From a virus: 40,642 bases of DNA. Positions 3,097 to 9,821 of the stretch are shown here, one piece after another. Position numbers and translations under genes: made by a program. The stretch is taken from positions 1 to 40,642 of IMG/VR virus record IMGVR_UViG_3300034684_000463; one strand, written 5' to 3'. The notes under the pieces were generated by a model. It ran no database searches and was not told the DNA's origin. It saw only the letters and a program-made list of their open reading frames with translations. Within the stretch, counting starts at the first letter, position 1; every line of letters starts with the position of its first letter.

Positions 3097-3430
3097 CAAT
3101 CGAACCCCTGCTCCTGTCGGTTGCAAGGGGCGGCAGATCCTGTATCGACCGCATCATGTCGATCGACCACGGGACCAGCTCCAGGAGACCTGCGCGCAGG
3201 CTGGCGTGGTTCTCATCCGTGCCCTCGATCATCGACGACATGACGCAGACCAAGCCCACCAGCAGGCCACCGGCGACGTCTTGCAGCGCCTCGCCGTCCG
3301 GGGCGTCGATCTTGTCGAGGGCATCGATTGCCGCCGTGACGAGCAGCTTGCGAGCCTCCTCTGATCGGCGGTCGCGCGGATCTGCCGGGTCGAAGGGGCT
3401 TGCGCCGTAGAGCTTGCCAACGTCAGCCAT
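3089..3430 (-). CDS. Hypothetical helical early protein
   Basis: This 113-residue protein of unknown function begins MADVGKLYGASPFDPADPRD. It is followed by three or four amphipathic helices, the central one rich in Leu/Val/Met. Its start codon lies inside the 3' end of the ParB-like gene and its end overlaps the next gene, so it is translated as part of the leftward operon. The possible pattern resemblance to the downstream protein suggests a duplicated pair. Nothing in the sequence gives a catalytic role. Confidence 0.7.
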   Translation of the reverse strand: MADVGKLYGASPFDPADPRDRRSEEARKLLVTAAIDALDKIDAPDGEALQDVAGGLLVGLVCVMSSMIEGTDENHASLRAGLLELVPWSIDMMRSIQDLPPLATDRSRGSIDG

Positions 3431-5300
3431 CGCTGCCCCCTTCCTCGCCGCCCTTGGCGGGCCGCTTCCACCGCAGCTCGTCGGGGAGCCAATCGTCGAT
3501 CTTCGCGGCCTCGGCGCGGCTCAGGCCGATGGCCTCGCGCACGCTCATATCGTCGAAGAGCGCCTGCAGCCTCTTGGCCTTCTCCGCGCGCTTCAGGCCG
3601 CGATAGGCCGAGTTGTCGAGATCGATCTTGTCGGCCGGCACCAGCCGCTCCCAGATGCTGTCCAGGTAAGCGCTGCTGGTGCGGCCGAGGAAGCCGGCTG
3701 CGGTGGGCGACCAGACGGACCGGGTGTTGACGTCGAGCTGCGCGGCCAGCGTCTCGGCGAGGGGGCCGGTGCCTTGGAAGGTGCGGGCGAGCGCCTCGGC
3801 CAGCACCTTGTTGCGGTGCTTTTCGCCAAGATCGCGGAAGGCTTCGAACGCGGCCGGCGTCGGATCCTCACCGCGGCTTTCAGCCTTGGTGACGGCGGCC
3901 AGCCGTTCGCTGATCGTCGTTCCCTCGGGCTTCGTCGGGCTGATGCTCGGCGGCGAAATGCTGACCGCCAAGGGCTTCGACCACGGGCTCAGCCCACCCA
4001 TCAGAGTCCATGCCAGAAGGTCGAGCATCAGCTTGGGCTGATCCATCAGGCGCGTCTGCAGCGCCAGCAGCTTGATCGATTTCAGATCATCCTGCAGGTT
4101 CTGCGGGAATGCCGCGGCGTCCTCTTCCGCCCCCTTCTTGCTGGTGACCTGGCCATCGCCGGCGCCGGCATCATCCGCCACATCTTCGCGCCGGCGATAC
4201 GCTCGGTCGACCTGGAAGCCGTCGCGGTCGACAAAGCAGAAAATGCCGCCAGTCTCTCGGTCCACGTCGGTGAAGTCGCCTTTCATCCGCTCCTCGAGCG
4301 CATCAAGCCGGTCTTCATCTTCCTTGCTGAGCTCGTCCGACCCGGAAGTCAGCCGATCATATTCCTCGGCATCCGCTTCGGTCAGTTCGACCGGCTCACG
4401 CCGGAGCCACTCCATATTTTGGACCAGCGTGTAGCTGCGGTAGCTCTCGGCGGTGAACTCCGCCCACTTCCAGCCTTCCTCAACGCGAAGCGCTTCGGTC
4501 TCGGCCTTGCCCTTCTCGATGAAGAGCTCGTTGAGCAGCTTCTCGTCGTGCAGGTAGCCTGATTCCGTGAACAGATCGCTCTGATAGGTGCCGCCGGCCG
4601 CGACGTAGGCTTCGAGCCCGACATAGCGGGCCCGGCGGTCGCTCAGCGGCACGGTATCGGGCGTCAGCTCGCGGCCCAGCATGTCCGGCCGGGTATCCCG
4701 GCCCCGCACCGCCTGCAGCGCCTCGAGACAGCGCGCCTCGGTCGGCGTAATGGTCAGAACCTTGGCGATCTCATAGGTGATCTCGTTCGCGCGCAGCGCG
4801 TCCAGGACCGGCGCCGGAAGATCCGCCAACCGCAGCCGGCGCTCCACATGCGCCTCCGATTTGGCGAAGCTGCGCGCGATCATCTGCGCCGAGGATCCGC
4901 GCTCGCGCATGGCGGCATAGGCCCGGACCTCGTCCGCGGGGTGCAGTTCGGACCGAGCCGTGTTCTCGGTGCCCGACCAGGCGATCGCACGGTGCGGATC
5001 GCTGGTGACCTTCACCGGCACGGGATCGATGCGCGTCTGCCCTGTCTTGCGGCTCCAGCCTTCGCCGGCGAGCTTCTGCAGGGCGCGCAGCCGCTTGCCG
5101 CCCCCGACGATCTCGATCGAGCCTGCGGCGGTCTCGATGCCAATGAGGTTCTGCAGCAGGCCGGCGATGGCGATGCTCTCGGCCATCGCCTCGATCTCTT
5201 CCTCGGCGACCTGCTGGCGGGTGTTGAGCGGCGACAGGGCGAGATCCGCGAGCGGGATCAGGCGCAGGTCGCCGCCGATGATGGGTGCTTGGTCATTCAT
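3423..5300 (-). CDS. Large ParB-like DNA-binding protein
   Basis: This 625-residue protein has an N-terminal ParB/Srx-type domain at about residues 10-110: LIPLADLALSPLNTR, then IAMAESIA-type helices, GSIEIVGGGKRLRALQKL, and ENTARSELHPADEVRAY. A KorB/ParB-like HTH follows (residues about 120-190, GSSAQMIARSFAKSEAHVER). The remaining 400 residues are unassigned and include an acidic, charged middle (about 300-400). In plasmids, ParB binds centromere-like sites and hydrolyses CTP. In phages, long ParB-like proteins of this kind occur in early operons, sometimes as nucleases or regulators. No parA is present, so a simple partition system is unlikely. I chose the start at 5300, which overlaps the upstream gene by 8 bases. 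The longer frame to 5396 adds arginine-rich shadow sequence. Confidence 0.85.
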   Translation of the reverse strand: MNDQAPIIGGDLRLIPLADLALSPLNTRQQVAEEEIEAMAESIAIAGLLQNLIGIETAAGSIEIVGGGKRLRALQKLAGEGWSRKTGQTRIDPVPVKVTSDPHRAIAWSGTENTARSELHPADEVRAYAAMRERGSSAQMIARSFAKSEAHVERRLRLADLPAPVLDALRANEITYEIAKVLTITPTEARCLEALQAVRGRDTRPDMLGRELTPDTVPLSDRRARYVGLEAYVAAGGTYQSDLFTESGYLHDEKLLNELFIEKGKAETEALRVEEGWKWAEFTAESYRSYTLVQNMEWLRREPVELTEADAEEYDRLTSGSDELSKEDEDRLDALEERMKGDFTDVDRETGGIFCFVDRDGFQVDRAYRRREDVADDAGAGDGQVTSKKGAEEDAAAFPQNLQDDLKSIKLLALQTRLMDQPKLMLDLLAWTLMGGLSPWSKPLAVSISPPSISPTKPEGTTISERLAAVTKAESRGEDPTPAAFEAFRDLGEKHRNKVLAEALARTFQGTGPLAETLAAQLDVNTRSVWSPTAAGFLGRTSSAYLDSIWERLVPADKIDLDNSAYRGLKRAEKAKRLQALFDDMSVREAIGLSRAEAAKIDDWLPDELRWKRPAKGGEEGGSDG

Positions 5301-5703
5301 GGCTGGCTGCCTCGCCGGCGGGCGCGGTCGGTTCGATCTCCTCCTGGTTACGCACCTGTGAGAAAACCCACGGCACAAAGACCAGGCTGTGCGCATCCTG
5401 CCAGTCGTCGCAGGCGATCTTCAGGCGCGCCAGAAGGTCCGCCTTCTGCTCGTCGCTGGCCCCGAAGATCGGGTCGCCGTCCTCGCCCTTCTGGTCGTCG
5501 GCGTTGTCATCGAACTGCGCCAGCACACCATCGGCGTCGGGGAGGAAGTCGGCGAGCCTGAGCGGATCCTGCCGGGCTTCGCAGATATAGCCGCGCTCAC
5601 CATCCAGCGCAGCGATCGCCGCTTCGCGGGTCTCGTGTTCGTCGGAAAAGTACTCGTCGCTCTGGCCGGAATACCATTTCCAGCCCTTGTCGTTGTCGGT
5701 CAT
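5293..5703 (-). CDS. Hypothetical acidic early protein
   Basis: This 136-residue, strongly acidic protein (MTDNDKGWKWYSGQSDEYFS...) has an excellent ribosome binding site, GAGGAGA, seven bases before the ATG at 5703. It is the first gene after an intrinsic terminator and a structured element, so its expression may depend on read-through or antitermination. The sequence ADFLPDADGVLAQFDDNADD and the Trp-rich N-terminus are distinctive, but I cannot assign a family. Its acidity would fit a DNA-mimic or an inhibitor of a DNA-binding protein, which is only a guess. Confidence 0.8.
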   Translation of the reverse strand: MTDNDKGWKWYSGQSDEYFSDEHETREAAIAALDGERGYICEARQDPLRLADFLPDADGVLAQFDDNADDQKGEDGDPIFGASDEQKADLLARLKIACDDWQDAHSLVFVPWVFSQVRNQEEIEPTAPAGEAASHE

Positions 5704-6655: not shown

Positions 6656-6750
6656 TGGCCGACGCCTGGATCGCGCATCTCCACGTTGAAGTGCAGGCAG
6701 ATCAGCAGCCAGAGGATGGCGACGAGGGGGAAGATGGCGAGCGCGGTCAT
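6652..6750 (-). CDS. 32-residue membrane peptide
   Basis: This short gene is missed by length-limited gene finders. It reads MTALAIFPLVAILWLLICLH then FNVEMRDPGVGQ. Residues 3-20 form a single transmembrane helix with a short polar C-terminus. Its support is its context: the ATG at 6750 overlaps the stop of the gene before it as ATGA, and its own stop overlaps the ATG of the gene after it the same way. It therefore fills the operon gap exactly. The function is unknown. It is one of three small membrane proteins in this operon. Confidence 0.65.
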   Translation of the reverse strand: MTALAIFPLVAILWLLICLHFNVEMRDPGVGQ

Positions 6751-6965
6751 TTCACCTGCTCCCGGATGTCGGCGATGATCGCAGTGAGCTCGCCTGCCGC
6801 AGTCGCGTCGGCCTCGGTCGCCGGCTCATAGGTTTCGAGGCCCAGCTCGGCACAGGTCAGGAGGGTGATCAACTGCGGGCCGGTCAGGCCTGCGATGGCG
6901 AAGGTCGGACCTGGCGGGCTGAGGGGCGTGTTGAACTGGACGCTGGTTTTAAAGGGCGGTGCCAT
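6747..6965 (-). CDS. First gene of the leftward early operon, unknown function
   Basis: This 72-residue protein begins MAPPFKTSVQFNTPLSPPGP and continues with a helical, acidic region (LTGPQLITLLTCAELGLETY, then TAAGELTAIIADIREQVK). I chose the ATG at 6965 because GGAG lies seven bases upstream. An ATG at 7001 would place the start inside the operator. It is the promoter-proximal gene under the two left operators, the position of lambda N. I see no arginine-rich motif, so an N-like role is not supported. Confidence 0.7.
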   Translation of the reverse strand: MAPPFKTSVQFNTPLSPPGPTFAIAGLTGPQLITLLTCAELGLETYEPATEADATAAGELTAIIADIREQVK

Positions 6966-6997
6966 GATGGTCTCCATCTTGGGGATAGAGACAGATT

Positions 6998-7013
6998 GCA
7001 CGCCTTGGCGTGC
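6998..7013. promoter_or_regulatory. Left operator 1 (perfect dyad)
   Basis: GCACGC-CTTG-GCGTGC is a perfect six-base inverted repeat with a four-base spacer. It extends to eight pairs with different spacing and is flanked by TTGCA and TGCA. The same half-sites recur in the repressor-cro interval at 8606-8621, so both clusters probably bind the same repressor. It lies 33 bases upstream of the ATG at 6965. Read leftward, a TTGCGA and a poor AATCTG box flank it 17 bases apart, so it may cover the leftward promoter. The promoter boxes are weak. Confidence 0.8.
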
Positions 7014-7028
7014 ATCGCAAGGGAAAAA

Positions 7029-7044
7029 ACACGCGGTAGCGTGC
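7029..7044. promoter_or_regulatory. Left operator 2
   Basis: ACACGC-GGTA-GCGTGC matches the operator consensus in 11 of 12 half-site bases. Its centre is 31 bases, about three helical turns, from left operator 1. A pair of sites on one DNA face fits cooperative repressor binding. The remaining bases of the 7045-7202 interval hold a terminator and the leader of the gene at 7203, and I see no other gene there. Confidence 0.7.
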
Positions 7045-7104
7045 GGCCAGGCTTCGTCTGGCGATTCGCTGTGCTACTCTGCAGGTGCGCAGCTTGTGGA
7101 CATG

Positions 7105-7127
7105 AAAAAGCCCGGCTTGGGCCGGGT
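7105..7127 (-). terminator. Leftward intrinsic terminator insulating the left operon
   Basis: CCCGGC (7111-7116) pairs with GCCGGG (7121-7126) over TTGG. Read leftward, the stem is followed by CTTTTTC. It lies between the immunity region and the left operators. Repressor transcripts that cross the gene at 7203 in antisense would stop here and would not enter the leftward operon in a lysogen. Confidence 0.8.
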
Positions 7128-7202
7128 CTAGAGTGCGATGGATTAAGTGAATGACCAAGCAGGCGTGTTAAGAACGAACGATGTTCCACTTGGAGGGATC
7201 AA

Positions 7203-7835
7203 ATGAGCGACGAAGCACTGAAACTGCTCTCTGCACCGTGGGACACCATTCTCACGCTTTCGTCTGGATACATCGGGTACTACGTCGCCCATGTCGGGAT
7301 CAGAGAGCACCATCGCGGGATCGACCAGGTGTTTCGCGTTGTTTTATATGGGTTCTTCGGAATTTTTGTTTACTACTGGCTTCGTTACAGCTTCGACGTA
7401 GGCATCCTGAGTGCCTCGTTGGCATCGCTCATCATGACCTTCGGTCTTGGTGCTTTCTGGAGGCGGTGGGGAAGAGCCCAGCTGGAAAAGGCGCTTCGGG
7501 CAGGCAGGATCAGCCAATCCGATGATACGCCAACGGCTTGGATGGCGCTTGCCGAAGCAGGTGATCATGCGGTCGCCACCCAGCTAAAGGTGCGATTGAG
7601 CGATGGAACTAGGCTTTTTTGTGAGAATTTGGCAGCCTTCAAGAGCCATCCTAACGGCCCGTGCGTCCTTGGGGGGAATGGAGATGTGTTGATCTACGTG
7701 ACGCACGAAGCCAAAGGATCCTCGAAGGAATATGCACGGATCGCCTCGATAGATGATGAGTTGCACGGCACGATGATCACTTACGTGCCGCGCGAGCAGA
7801 TCGCGAGAATTGAGTTCCGAAGAATGAGACGATGA
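7203..7835 (+). CDS. Membrane protein in the immunity region (DUF6338-like layout)
   Basis: This 210-residue protein has a strong GGAGG ribosome binding site six bases before its ATG. Residues about 15-35 (TILTLSSGYIGYYVAHVG) form a first hydrophobic segment, 45-62 (VVLYGFFGIFVYYWLRY) a second and 65-85 a third. A soluble domain from residue 95 follows, with DTPTAWMAL, LKVRLSDGTRLF, VLGGNGDVLIYVTHE and a final TYVPREQIARIEFR. This order of GYIGY near the start, GREHH, PTAWD-like, a DG-strand and a terminal I-x-x-I-E-F strand resembles DUF6338 from memory. It sits between the two operator clusters, convergent with the repressor gene. In lambda, rex occupies that place and excludes other phages. 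A lysogenic exclusion role is inferred. Confidence 0.8.
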   Translation: MSDEALKLLSAPWDTILTLSSGYIGYYVAHVGIREHHRGIDQVFRVVLYGFFGIFVYYWLRYSFDVGILSASLASLIMTFGLGAFWRRWGRAQLEKALRAGRISQSDDTPTAWMALAEAGDHAVATQLKVRLSDGTRLFCENLAAFKSHPNGPCVLGGNGDVLIYVTHEAKGSSKEYARIASIDDELHGTMITYVPREQIARIEFRRMRR

Positions 7836-7868
7836 TCAGTCGTCAGAGGGGGGCGGCGGGGGATGGCT

Positions 7869-7888
7869 GGAGCCTCCGGCTCCCGTTT
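7869..7888 (+). terminator. Hairpin after the 7203 gene
   Basis: GGAGCC (7869-7874) and GGCTCC (7878-7883) form a six-pair hairpin over TCC, followed by CGTTTCG. The T-run is short, so it is a weak intrinsic terminator or an mRNA-stabilising hairpin. It is placed 34 bases after the stop codon of the membrane-protein gene. Confidence 0.45.
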
Positions 7889-8039
7889 CGGGCTTGTGAT
7901 TATTCTGGGGTGTAGATGGGATGTAGTTCTTTTCTGAATGCCGTGGAATTTCTTGCTTTGGGGTGCCGCTGCTCTCTTTAGTCAAGGTCCAACCTCCTCA
8001 TGTTGCAGAAAAATCGTCTCTCATCAGTGCCTTGAAGGA

Positions 8040-8130
8040 TATGATGACTGCTGCCGGGCCATCATCATACGAGTTCACCCGGGTTGTCTCCGCAGGTTGA
8101 CCGATGCGCGGATTGCCGCGTAGGGTGAAC
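8040..8130. other. Structured noncoding segment between the 7203 gene and the repressor
   Basis: The 350-base gap 7836-8185 has no convincing gene. Within it, TATGATGA (8040-8047) pairs with TCATCATA (8062-8069). GTTCACCC (8073-8080) pairs with GGGTGAAC (8123-8130) and encloses a small hairpin CGCGG-ATTG-CCGCG (8107-8120). Read leftward, these follow the repressor stop and could act as its 3' end. A small RNA is also possible. The flanking bases 7889-8039 are AT-richer and show nothing I can support. Confidence 0.4.
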
Positions 8131-8185
8131 GGATTGAGAACATCGGGGGGTGTGGTGGTTGATCTGGGCGCGATTAGGATGCTTC

Positions 8186-8545
8186 TCATTTGGCGTTCGC
8201 TCCCGGCGGATGCTCGGGAAGAGGGCCTTCGGCTTCTGGCCGATCTTGCAGAGCCTCTAGAACAGACAGGGCTTGGCCCCTCACTTCCGGGCGAATTCGG
8301 CTCGCCACGGCTAGAAACCTCAGGTCGTCCTCGGAAGCGCGGATGCCCGTGAGGACATAGAGCGCAGACTGCTTGCCCAGCACGTCAAGCAGCCGGGCAA
8401 GGCGATCAGAGCCCGGCTCCTTCCCATCCTTGAGGAATTGCTGCACGTAATTCACACCCAAACCGGCCGCTACGCTTATCGCACGTGCGCTCCTGCCGTC
8501 GGTGCTGATCGCCTTCTGCAGGCGCGTAACCCAGTCTTTTTCCAT
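8186..8545 (-). CDS. CI-like repressor, HTH domain without peptidase domain
   Basis: This 119-residue protein has an XRE-type helix-turn-helix at residues about 6-56 (RLQKAISTDGRSARAISVAA, GLGVNYVQQFLKDGKEPG, RLARLLDVLG). A short helical C-terminus follows (EDDLRFLAVASRI and EVRGQALSVLEALQ). It lacks the S24 LexA/CI autoproteolysis domain, whose Ser/Lys residues and length are absent. RecA-stimulated self-cleavage is therefore not expected. I chose the ATG at 8545. The frame to 8674 would run through the operators. It is divergent from the Cro-like gene, with three operator dyads between them, which is the main support for its role as the lysogeny repressor. Confidence 0.85.
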   Translation of the reverse strand: MEKDWVTRLQKAISTDGRSARAISVAAGLGVNYVQQFLKDGKEPGSDRLARLLDVLGKQSALYVLTGIRASEDDLRFLAVASRIRPEVRGQALSVLEALQDRPEAEGPLPEHPPGANAK

Positions 8546-8558
8546 GCTCAATTTGCTA

Positions 8559-8574
8559 GCACGCTGGTTCGTTC
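8559..8574. promoter_or_regulatory. Right operator 3 (repressor-proximal)
   Basis: GCACGC-TGGT-TCGTTC has one perfect and one degraded half-site (10 of 12). Its centre is 23 bases from the next operator. It lies 13 bases upstream of the repressor ATG, where a bound protein could switch off the repressor's own promoter, as lambda OR3 does. Confidence 0.6.
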
Positions 8575-8581
8575 GGCGCAT

Positions 8582-8597
8582 GAACGTTATGGCGTGT
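8582..8597. promoter_or_regulatory. Right operator 2
   Basis: GAACGT-TATG-GCGTGT matches the consensus in 9 of 12 half-site bases. Its centre lies 23 and 24 bases from its two neighbours. On its own it would not be called. The regular spacing in a three-site array is the support. Confidence 0.6.
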
Positions 8598-8605
8598 ATT
8601 GACGC

Positions 8606-8621
8606 GCACGCCAAAGCGTGC
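8606..8621. promoter_or_regulatory. Right operator 1 (perfect dyad, cro-proximal)
   Basis: GCACGC-CAAA-GCGTGC is a perfect dyad with the same half-sites as left operator 1. It ends 12 bases before the proposed cro start. The flanking sequence TTGCAC read leftward could be the -35 box of the repressor promoter, with AATACA 17 bases on. The boxes are weak, so promoter positions stay uncertain. Confidence 0.8.
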
Positions 8622-8633
8622 AAACCATCCGCC

Positions 8634-8852
8634 ATGGAACAGCCTCTCCTCACCGAAGTCGAACGCTTCATCACCGCGACCGGCCTGTCTGATCACAGGG
8701 CTGGGATGGTGCTCTGCAAGAATGGTAAGCTTGTCGAGCGTCTCCGGGCTGGTCGGCGCATCTGGCCTGAGACCGCTCAGATGGTGCGTGATGCAATCGC
8801 GCGCGAGACCGCTGCGCGCTGTGCGCCTGAAGCAAGCGAGGCGGCCGAATGA
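8634..8852 (+). CDS. Cro-like small DNA-binding protein
   Basis: This 72-residue protein (MEQPLLTEVERFITATGLSD...) has the compact helical shape of a Cro-type HTH. ERFITATGLSDHRAGMVLCK and GKLVERLRAGRRIWPETAQM would form helices 2-3 and the following turn. It is the first gene rightward of the operators and divergent from the repressor, the usual place of cro. I chose the start at 8634 because upstream ATG codons (8580, 8589) fall inside operator 2. No good ribosome binding site precedes it, so translation may be leaderless or start elsewhere. The identity rests on position and helical pattern. Confidence 0.7.
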   Translation: MEQPLLTEVERFITATGLSDHRAGMVLCKNGKLVERLRAGRRIWPETAQMVRDAIARETAARCAPEASEAAE

Positions 8853-8926
8853 CCGCCCCGCTTCACCATCCTCTCTCTGTTCATCATGCCGGCTCACAAC
8901 CGCATGATGCCTCAGGAGAAAACCAA

Positions 8927-9154
8927 ATGTCCCATACCAAAGTTTTTGACCCGCGCGGTTTCCGCGCGCGTTTCGCCGATCTCTGGGCCGAGTTCCTGAG
9001 GGCGAACTACCGCAATCCCGAAGAGGTCTCTGTGGCCTACGGGGTGCGCTTTCAGACAGCAGTCAATTGGTGGAACGGGTCCAACCGCCCCAGCGGCGAC
9101 GTGGTTGCGCTGGCTGGGCGCAGGTTCACCGAGTTCCTGGAGAAGCGCGCATGA
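8927..9154 (+). CDS. Early HTH regulator (CII-position)
   Basis: This 75-residue protein has a helix-turn-helix reading EEVSVAYGVRFQTAVNWWNG followed by SNRPSGDVVALAG. Its Trp-rich recognition helix resembles those of phage and plasmid copy regulators. I chose the ATG at 8927 because AGGAGA lies seven bases upstream. An ATG at 8849 that overlaps the cro stop is the alternative and adds 26 residues. It is the second gene of the rightward operon, where lambda has cII. That functional parallel is positional only. Confidence 0.7.
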   Translation: MSHTKVFDPRGFRARFADLWAEFLRANYRNPEEVSVAYGVRFQTAVNWWNGSNRPSGDVVALAGRRFTEFLEKRA

Positions 9155-9306
9155 TGCGGCTGGTGATCCTCTATCCCGCCTGGGCGGTGCTGACGCTGCT
9201 GATCGTGCTGCTGGCGGGCGGGGGGATCTCCCTGCGCATCGCCGCCGATCGGTTGGTGCAGGCGCAAAAGTTTTTGGCCAATGAAATTGAGGCTCGCCGC
9301 AAATGA
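9151..9306 (+). CDS. Small single-pass membrane protein
   Basis: This 51-residue protein begins MMRLVILYPAWAVLTLLIVL, a transmembrane helix spanning residues 3-27. A short amphipathic, charged C-terminal helix follows (AADRLVQAQKFLANEIEARRK). The ATG at 9151 overlaps the previous stop, and the stop overlaps the next ATG. ATG 9154 is an equal alternative start. The function is unknown. Confidence 0.7.
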   Translation: MMRLVILYPAWAVLTLLIVLLAGGGISLRIAADRLVQAQKFLANEIEARRK

Positions 9307-9821
9307 CCAGCGTGAGCTCGCATGATCAGATCAGCTGGGGCGCGCTGCTCGCGCCCGATGTCGCCGGTCGCTTCGAGCTCCTGAAAACCGGCGCCACACC
9401 CGAGCTGGTGGCGCGGCACTGCCGCTGGGGATCGCCGGTCTATCTGGCCACGCCCTACAGCAAGGTCTCGGTCGGCCCCGACGGCATCTGGCGGCGCGAC
9501 CTGTCCGAGGCGGCAATGGCGGTTGCGGCGCGCGAGTCCGCACGGCTTCTCGATGTCGGCGTGGCTGCGGTGTCGCCGATCGTGCTCTCGGGCGCGATGA
9601 TCCACGCCACCATGTATCCGTCGCCCCGCCTCGCGCCGCTCGACGCGAAGCTCTGGCGCAACTTCTGCCGGCCGATCCTCGATGCCTGCTGCGCCGTCGT
9701 GGTGCCGGACGTTCAGGGTTGGTCGACCTCGGGCGGCGTCTGGCACGAGGTCAAGATCTCGCTCGAGCTGCAGGTGCCGGTCTTTCTCTACGCCGCCGGG
9801 TCGAGCCATGGCGAGGCCTAA
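9303..9821 (+). CDS. DUF1937 protein, nucleoside deoxyribosyltransferase-like fold
   Basis: This 172-residue protein has the family landmarks in order: PVYLATPYSK, then a helix with the A-x-x-x-x-x-A-A-x-L pattern around AARESARLLDVGVAAVSPIV, W-R-x-x-C-R-P-I-L-D-A-C-C-A-V-V-V-P, and GWSTSGGVWHEV. DUF1937 belongs to the nucleoside 2-deoxyribosyltransferase-like superfamily. In that superfamily the YLA(S/T)PY strand binds the nucleobase or nucleotide, and the G-x-x-x-S-x-G-x-x-x-E segment holds the catalytic Glu. Here Glu lies in WHEVKI. A role in phage nucleotide metabolism is inferred. The start at 9303 is ATGA-coupled to the gene before. Confidence 0.85.
   Translation: MTSVSSHDQISWGALLAPDVAGRFELLKTGATPELVARHCRWGSPVYLATPYSKVSVGPDGIWRRDLSEAAMAVAARESARLLDVGVAAVSPIVLSGAMIHATMYPSPRLAPLDAKLWRNFCRPILDACCAVVVPDVQGWSTSGGVWHEVKISLELQVPVFLYAAGSSHGEA

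Follow-up and report, generated by a model that had tools for sequence, protein, structure and literature searches.

A predicted membrane protein gene and its small convergent ORF in a phage immunity region: a possible two-gene exclusion cassette with remote kinship to DUF6338

Introduction

What does a membrane protein gene do when it lies between the left and right operators of a temperate phage, and does it act by itself? The question is raised by a gene at positions 7203-7835 of the window, by which we mean the whole stretch of DNA analysed here, an entire virus record (IMG/VR IMGVR_UViG_3300034684_000463) of 40,642 bases. A first-pass annotation had described the gene as independent of both operons, bounded by a terminator on each side and placed like the rex genes. 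The analysis below finds a companion for it, an overlooked small ORF in the repressor operon, with which it makes up a conserved pair. Judged by its integrase, terminase, portal, head, tape-measure and endolysin genes, together with P4-type primase genes, the window is a siphophage-like temperate virus. The primases nearest to its own are those of Rhodobacter phage RcapNL and Paracoccus phage Pthi1 (46%), and across 18% of a 20-kb query the head genes are matched by Pthi1 at 79%; the host probably belongs to the Rhodobacterales.

Results and Discussion

Layout of the immunity region

The features of the region are collected in Table 1. The membrane gene is considered real because its product matches the PHROGs family phrog_12870, listed there with function unknown, over its whole length (E 1.8e-53, residues 7-209) and also matches proteins in other genomes. 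The good ribosome binding site claimed for it is present five bases 5' of the ATG, and its position between the left and right operators holds as well, operator-like palindromes being found on both sides of it: the palindrome GCACGCnnnnGCGTGC occurs at three sites of the immunity region, two of them perfect. On the other side of the right palindrome, the gene in the Cro position gave no confident family in a Pfam-type profile search. The repressor-like protein resembles HTH_3 at E 0.013, which is under the Pfam cut-off. Its gene heads a leftward operon of three: the stop of the repressor-like gene overlaps the ATG of the 63-aa ORF (ATGA), for which a PHROGs search gave no match, and the third gene is a previously unlisted ORF of 49 codons whose TGA stop abuts the TGA of the membrane gene. 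The proposed independence of the membrane gene from both operons thus stands as regards its direction of transcription, but not otherwise, since the two stops adjoin.

Of the two terminators said to bound the gene, the left one is fair (dG -13 kcal/mol; z -2.3 versus shuffles) but acts on leftward transcripts. The right-hand candidate (7875-7894) is no stabler than shuffled sequences (z +0.34) and lies inside the overlooked ORF, which is predicted to be coding; evidently, a supposed terminator can mask a convergent ORF some 50 codons long. The left terminator is also the next one that leftward transcription meets after the 49-aa ORF, past the membrane gene, and a leftward transcript reaching it would be antisense to that gene. 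The likeness to rex is likewise half right: placement in an immunity region recurs in other lineages (see below), but the true rex position, on the repressor strand and downstream of the repressor, is that of the small partner and not that of the membrane gene. An Rfam scan of positions 6700-9000 found no known RNA.

Table 1. Features of the immunity region, and the endolysin gene, in the window.
Feature	Position	Strand	Basis
Left operon, first ORF	6747..7001	-	ORF list
Operator-like palindrome, left	6998..7013	.	Sequence
Operator-like palindrome, left, one mismatch	7029..7044	.	Sequence
Intrinsic terminator for leftward transcripts	7111..7126	-	dG and shuffles
Shine-Dalgarno GGAGGG of membrane gene	7192..7197	+	Sequence
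Membrane protein gene, 210 aa; phrog_12870, remote DUF6338 homologue	7203..7835	+	Profile match, AF2 model
Overlooked small ORF, TTG start, 49 aa, disordered, proline-rich	7836..7985	-	AGGAGG upstream
RBS AGGAGG of 49-aa ORF	7998-7993	-	Sequence
63-aa ORF between repressor gene and 49-aa ORF	7998..8189	-	ORF list
Repressor-like gene, 119 aa	8186..8545	-	Mainly position and palindromes
Operator-like palindrome, right	8606..8621	.	Sequence
Small divergent gene, Cro position	8634..8852	+	ORF list, position
Endolysin gene	33632-34444		Gene annotation

The membrane protein

The product of the membrane gene gave no match in Pfam (PF19865, the DUF6338 family, included, at E up to 1), NCBIfam or PADLOC. 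Its AF2 model, built from 8 sequences (mean pLDDT 72.9, pTM 0.44), has helices at residues 13-30, 39-64 and 68-100 and strands within 127-206. From this we describe the protein as a three-helix anchor (residues 13-100), a linker, and an Sm-like beta domain (about 110-208). The first membrane segment is weakly hydrophobic (best 19-residue mean 1.05), and six lysines or arginines stand at residues 87-105, directly past the third helix; from the charges around this helix the C-terminal domain is expected to be cytoplasmic. The three-segment anchor and cytoplasmic domain originally proposed thus agree with both the model and the distribution of charges.

A second model, that of a viral DUF6338 protein (4 sequences, pLDDT 72.2, pTM 0.49), is built alike: at moderate confidence, each of the two has three long helices and a short one, together with a small beta barrel. 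Structural matches to the beta domain of the window protein were nearly all of the Sm-type fold. The best alignment of its barrel, to SpLsm4, reached Z 6.9 (rmsd 2.2, 60 residues), where the safe value of the tool is 8, and Foldseek placed Lsm at E 0.099 with a probability of 0.96, E-values that alone are not significant. The DUF6338 barrel aligned with Sm at Z 8.3 (rmsd 2.5 over 73 residues) and with Escherichia coli Hfq at Z 7.8 (rmsd 1.7 over 60), and among the matches listed for this model all 50 were Sm, LSm or Hfq. Because two separate models yield the same fold, we predict with moderate confidence that the C-terminal domain is Sm/Hfq-like. By sequence, the window family found no credible match among solved chains. 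DUF6338 found a botulinum-associated haemagglutinin component at E 1.4, which is chance level and was disregarded.

Two other kinds of membrane protein were compared. Matches to LydA-type holins were weak and confined to helices (E 0.016 and worse), and the endolysin gene of the window lies elsewhere (Table 1). The MscS-type channels share with the window protein the order of three helices followed by an Sm-like beta domain; the window protein differs from them in having no profile similarity and no cytoplasmic cage domain. Homology to MscS was rejected at the level of sequence, as hhalign gave 0.1 and 0.6% against 14 MscS-type proteins of 6 genomes, similar to the reversed controls. From the Sm, LSm and Hfq proteins, whose fold the C-terminal domain resembles in both models, the window protein is set apart by its membrane anchor and by the absence of a credible sequence match to a solved chain.

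The small convergent ORF

The 49-aa protein ends in PPPPPSDD, and 17 of its last 20 residues are P, G, K, S, T, N, Q, D or E. G+C by codon position (0.55, 0.55, 0.59) is not informative on coding in this ORF. To count such partners elsewhere we required a convergent ORF of at least 25 codons whose stop lies -20 to +60 from that of the membrane gene, with at least 13 of the last 20 residues from the set PGKSTNQDE and at most two large hydrophobics; these thresholds were set after the first examples were known. A partner of this kind was found at 17 of 20 window-family loci, as against 6 of 216 control ORFs (others of at least 150 aa, taken from loci of the same sort) and, in another control set, 5 of 259. 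Counted by lineage, with lineages grouped by eye, it is present in 8/11 (Fisher 3e-9), or 9/12 when locus L077 is included. A codirectional small ORF was seen at 0/20 of the window-branch loci. Among the three loci that fail the rule, two (L026 and L029) miss it narrowly, their tails being rich in proline and lysine, and the third (L033) is without any tail. Three loci were left uncounted: L014, which is truncated; L024, whose gene is that of L013; and L002, whose record ends at the gene.

In a Roseobacter-type clade, the small ORFs could be compared codon by codon, and the changes at codon positions 1, 2 and 3 numbered, for example, 3/2/14, 4/5/20 and 9/5/27 between members. As in the membrane genes, third positions change most, which argues that these small ORFs are translated; the test covers this one clade, the ORF of the window having no close relative for comparison. 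A purine-rich tetramer or longer, of the type found in ribosome binding sites, precedes 29 of 32 small ORFs (the DUF6338 partners described below included; the chance rate was not computed). The architecture and partnership of the pair are regarded as well supported, and the membrane gene and the small ORF very probably form one unit.

Kinship with DUF6338

In hhalign the window family and the DUF6338 profile matched at 93.2% (5 proteins), 89.9% (20) and 81.8% (16). The 20-protein DUF6338 profile gave E 1.7e-6 with a score of 47.5, whereas a reversed profile scored 16.8 and none of 8 shuffled ones exceeded 14.2 (all 0.5% or less). The alignment spans the helices and reaches only into the first part of the beta domain. 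One entry, G1026:C2, is matched both by PF19865 (9.3e-21) and by the window-family profile (5.3e-8). Judged by these profiles the window protein is a remote homologue of DUF6338, and by the rule of Pfam it is no member.

The likeness extends to the neighbouring DNA. Both proteins are modelled as three helices followed by an Sm-like domain, and in both branches a small, disordered and proline-rich ORF stands at the 3' end of the gene; this partner is convergent in the window branch but codirectional in DUF6338. When the DUF6338 partner is defined as a codirectional small ORF that ends 30 to 320 bases past the gene and satisfies the same tail rule, it is found at 19 of 29 loci, versus 12/216 and 9/259 in the controls (Fisher 4e-16). 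These 29 were drawn from 37 loci (L044-L069, L079-L083 and L084-L089), with L047, L052-L055, L061, L066 and L069 excluded as below the cut-off, broken in frame or second pieces. L061 has a partner nevertheless outside the count, the partners of L050 and L084 are visible by eye and missed by the rule, and L057 and L058 are near copies. Public annotation lists the partner ORF as hypothetical at L084, L085 and L087, in the last case two in tandem.

The DUF6338 partners carry GYQP repeats that are absent from the window-branch partners. In 21 DUF6338 partner proteins, G[YW]xP occurs 26 times (0.7 in composition shuffles) and [YW]QP 22 times (0.43 in shuffles), whereas [YW]QP is found in 0/13 partners of the window branch. 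QP by itself occurs in 9 of these 13 proteins, with a milder excess (11 versus 4.3). All motif counts are descriptive, the proteins within each set being related. Taken together, the two-gene unit of the window very probably belongs to the DUF6338 kind.

Small proteins beside a DUF6338 gene have already been seen. PMC10433244 describes three proline-rich proteins of less than 50 aa in Pseudomonas stutzeri, detected by digest-free mass spectrometry with 44 to 114 spectra per small protein, whose genes share a predicted operon with one for DUF6338; its authors regarded them as unconserved outside the species and perhaps as de novo genes. Our survey suggests that this kind of small protein is general and that its sequences drift fast. 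In the literature searched, DUF6338 is named by this one paper, and apart from it neither the pairing of membrane gene and small ORF nor an Sm-like anti-phage membrane protein was found described.

Distribution and genomic settings

The order repressor, small ORF or ORFs, and convergent membrane gene is found in four lineages belonging to two phage types. The window and the L036/L075 lineage are of the same type, the latter having a ParB-like protein and the same primase type. The other two lineages, L076/L038 and L077, are Mu-like: L077 has Mu transposase domains, and L076 has a protein that begins alike. The repressor of L036 matches HTH_3 (2.1e-7), and those of L077 and L076 combine Peptidase_S24 with an HTH. 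About 20 bases separate the repressor stop from the start of the small ORF in L077, and in L076 there are three small ORFs in tandem. Pthi1, the closest named phage checked, has about 236 bases and no membrane gene between left operon and repressor, and the corresponding gap of RcapNL is 13 bases without a gene; since Pthi1 has no such gene at that place, the pair behaves as an optional extra.

Other members of the window family lie within a head operon (L040) or behind a tail gene (L041), and others again on plasmids, beside recombinases or in chromosomes. The family is present in 9/394 genomes of one bacterial family and 4/385 of the class, and its profile finds 5/349 genomes of the phylum; DUF6338 is present in 15/299 genomes. 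Viral contigs, searched with three smaller alignments, yielded 0, 1 and 3 loci. Many DUF6338 neighbours are housekeeping genes according to Pfam. With PADLOC, 122 neighbours of DUF6338 (16 loci) matched 87 models versus 18 models matched by 119 control ORFs (13 loci), the models overlapping so that neither figure gives a number of genes; this comparison is not taken as support for an enrichment in defence islands.

A few DUF6338 settings are striking single cases. On a Proteus plasmid (L085:4001-6221) the DUF6338 gene and a 59-aa partner stand directly before genes for a ThsB-type TIR protein and a caspase-domain protein, and behind Tn7-like tnsD/tnsE. On an Acinetobacter plasmid (L087:858-5096) one operon comprises a metallohydrolase, Prok-E2, a ThiF-JAB fusion, DUF6338 and two small GYQP proteins. 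An inovirus-like record with a Zot-domain gene (L080:402-4936) has a DUF6338 gene with a GYQP partner, and in a further viral record (L079) the DUF6338 gene adjoins the integrase.

Comparison with RexAB-type systems

By analogy, the nearest working model is the RexAB type, the proteins of which are unrelated to those described here. Systems of this type are described for lambda and Sbash gp30/31 (PMC6426596) and for Pseudomonas putida (PMC12894663). As in these, the window has a two-gene cassette in a prophage repressor region, composed of one membrane protein and one non-membrane protein, and its leftward series of repressor, 63-aa ORF and 49-aa ORF occupies the place of cI-rexA-rexB, the order given for lambda (PMC6426596). 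According to the same text, RexB and Sbash gp31 cross the membrane with four segments and RexA and Sbash gp30 carry DUF4747, whereas the window protein has three segments in its model and a disordered partner of 49 aa. Pfam returned no DUF4747 match for the window membrane protein. In the RexAB-type systems a cytoplasmic protein activates a membrane effector (PMC12894663, PMC6426596).

Possible function

From its position and neighbours, we read the pair most likely as an exclusion cassette of two genes, the membrane protein being under the control of the small one, with a probability of roughly 0.5; whether exclusion or defence is the job of the unit at all stands at the same even odds. The setting is defence-like by virtue of the place in the repressor operon in four lineages, the neighbours on the Proteus and Acinetobacter plasmids, and the rarity of the family (9/394). 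Against exclusion stand the several members outside immunity regions and the housekeeping neighbours of DUF6338.

In a lysogen, the small protein would be made from the repressor transcript and would bind the Sm-like domain by short linear motifs, keeping the membrane protein silent. Infection by a second phage might upset this balance, the small protein being lost, modified or titrated, or the leftward transcript acting through antisense regulation; the freed membrane protein could then assemble and damage or depolarise the membrane, so that the infection aborts. The small protein would thus act as a ligand of the Sm-like domain and determine the state of an oligomeric membrane effector. Two precedents suggest this role: some LSm domains, among them the ones in Edc3 and Scd6, recognise short motifs of disordered proteins, and MscS, with its N-terminus out, has three helices and an Sm-like domain just behind the third. 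Against the proposal stands the absence of the GYQP motif of DUF6338 partners from the window-branch partners, and we hold binding of the small partner to the Sm-like domain to be a plausible idea with somewhat less than even odds.

Other functions would fit parts of this evidence. The pair might serve the upkeep of prophages and plasmids as an addiction module, in which the membrane protein is the toxin and the small protein or an antisense transcript the antitoxin. Family members do occur on plasmids and beside recombinases, a prophage would be well served by a neutraliser that the repressor transcript supplies, and transcripts running leftward would be antisense to the membrane gene as far as the terminator beyond it. 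However, there are up to three tandem small ORFs, chromosomal members adjoin housekeeping genes, and the layout is convergent in one branch and codirectional in the other, which to our knowledge is unusual for toxin-antitoxin pairs; we consider such a module rather unlikely. A membrane-bound protein with an Sm-like ring could also handle RNA or stress in the ordinary physiology of lysogen or host, with no relation to phages. The alignment of the C-terminal domains with Sm, LSm and Hfq (Z up to 6.9 in the window and 8.3 in DUF6338) and the ordinary surroundings of DUF6338 genes in several genomes agree with this, but a common fold proves no function, and genes so rare and patchy (9/394, 4/385; DUF6338 15/299) and so often on mobile elements make it improbable. 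Least probable, and by our estimate a long shot, is that the membrane protein alone stops DNA injection, as in superinfection exclusion, and that the small ORF is irrelevant. The position in the immunity region would suit such an entry block, as would the DUF6338 gene of the inovirus-like record, but the small ORF accompanies the membrane gene across unrelated settings and changes as coding DNA does.

Returning to the exclusion cassette under control of a small protein, a wider and more tentative proposal, which we think somewhat doubtful, is that DUF6338 and the phage branch together constitute a widespread and unrecognised system. It would consist of a membrane-anchored Sm/Hfq-like protein and one to three dedicated, disordered microprotein ligands, which in the main branch bear repeated GYQP-type motifs; by placing the microprotein within the repressor operon, phages would have let lysogeny itself set the state of the membrane effector. 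If this is right, a Pfam family without a function and a set of unlisted microproteins would be one module found in phages, on plasmids and in chromosomes, and two unrelated phage types would hold the cassette in their immunity regions, in the same order beside the repressor. The supposed de novo microproteins of P. stutzeri, for which the pair offers another reading, would then belong to a two-part DUF6338 system. The pair would also point to a use of the Sm-like fold at the membrane, together with short linear motifs.

Further observations

Several features near the cassettes are noted here for their own sake. The left operon of the window encodes an unusually large ParB-like protein of 656 aa (3423-5396, minus strand; phrog_7783), and in L036 a 619-aa protein with a ParB HTH domain likewise adjoins the cassette. 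In L075 a 74-aa ORF occupies the place that corresponds to the 63-aa ORF of the window. To the right of the immunity region, the window has a gene like DUF1937 / nucleoside 2-deoxyribosyltransferase (9303-9821, plus strand; E 6.4e-36). In L077 (1559-3990) an AAA ATPase gene of OLD/AbiEii-like type is followed by another ORF and then by the membrane gene and small ORF; the region of the ATPase gene is possibly a second defence unit. Finally, the record named Synechococcus phage Ssp-JY41 (PP438431.1; L002) resembles a Rhodobacterales plasmid: its annotation includes RepA-like, ParA and Txe/YoeB genes and names no virion gene. PADLOC assigned its membrane protein, like that of the window, to 0 families, and by eye this protein is identical to those of Rhodobacterales loci such as L007 and L008.
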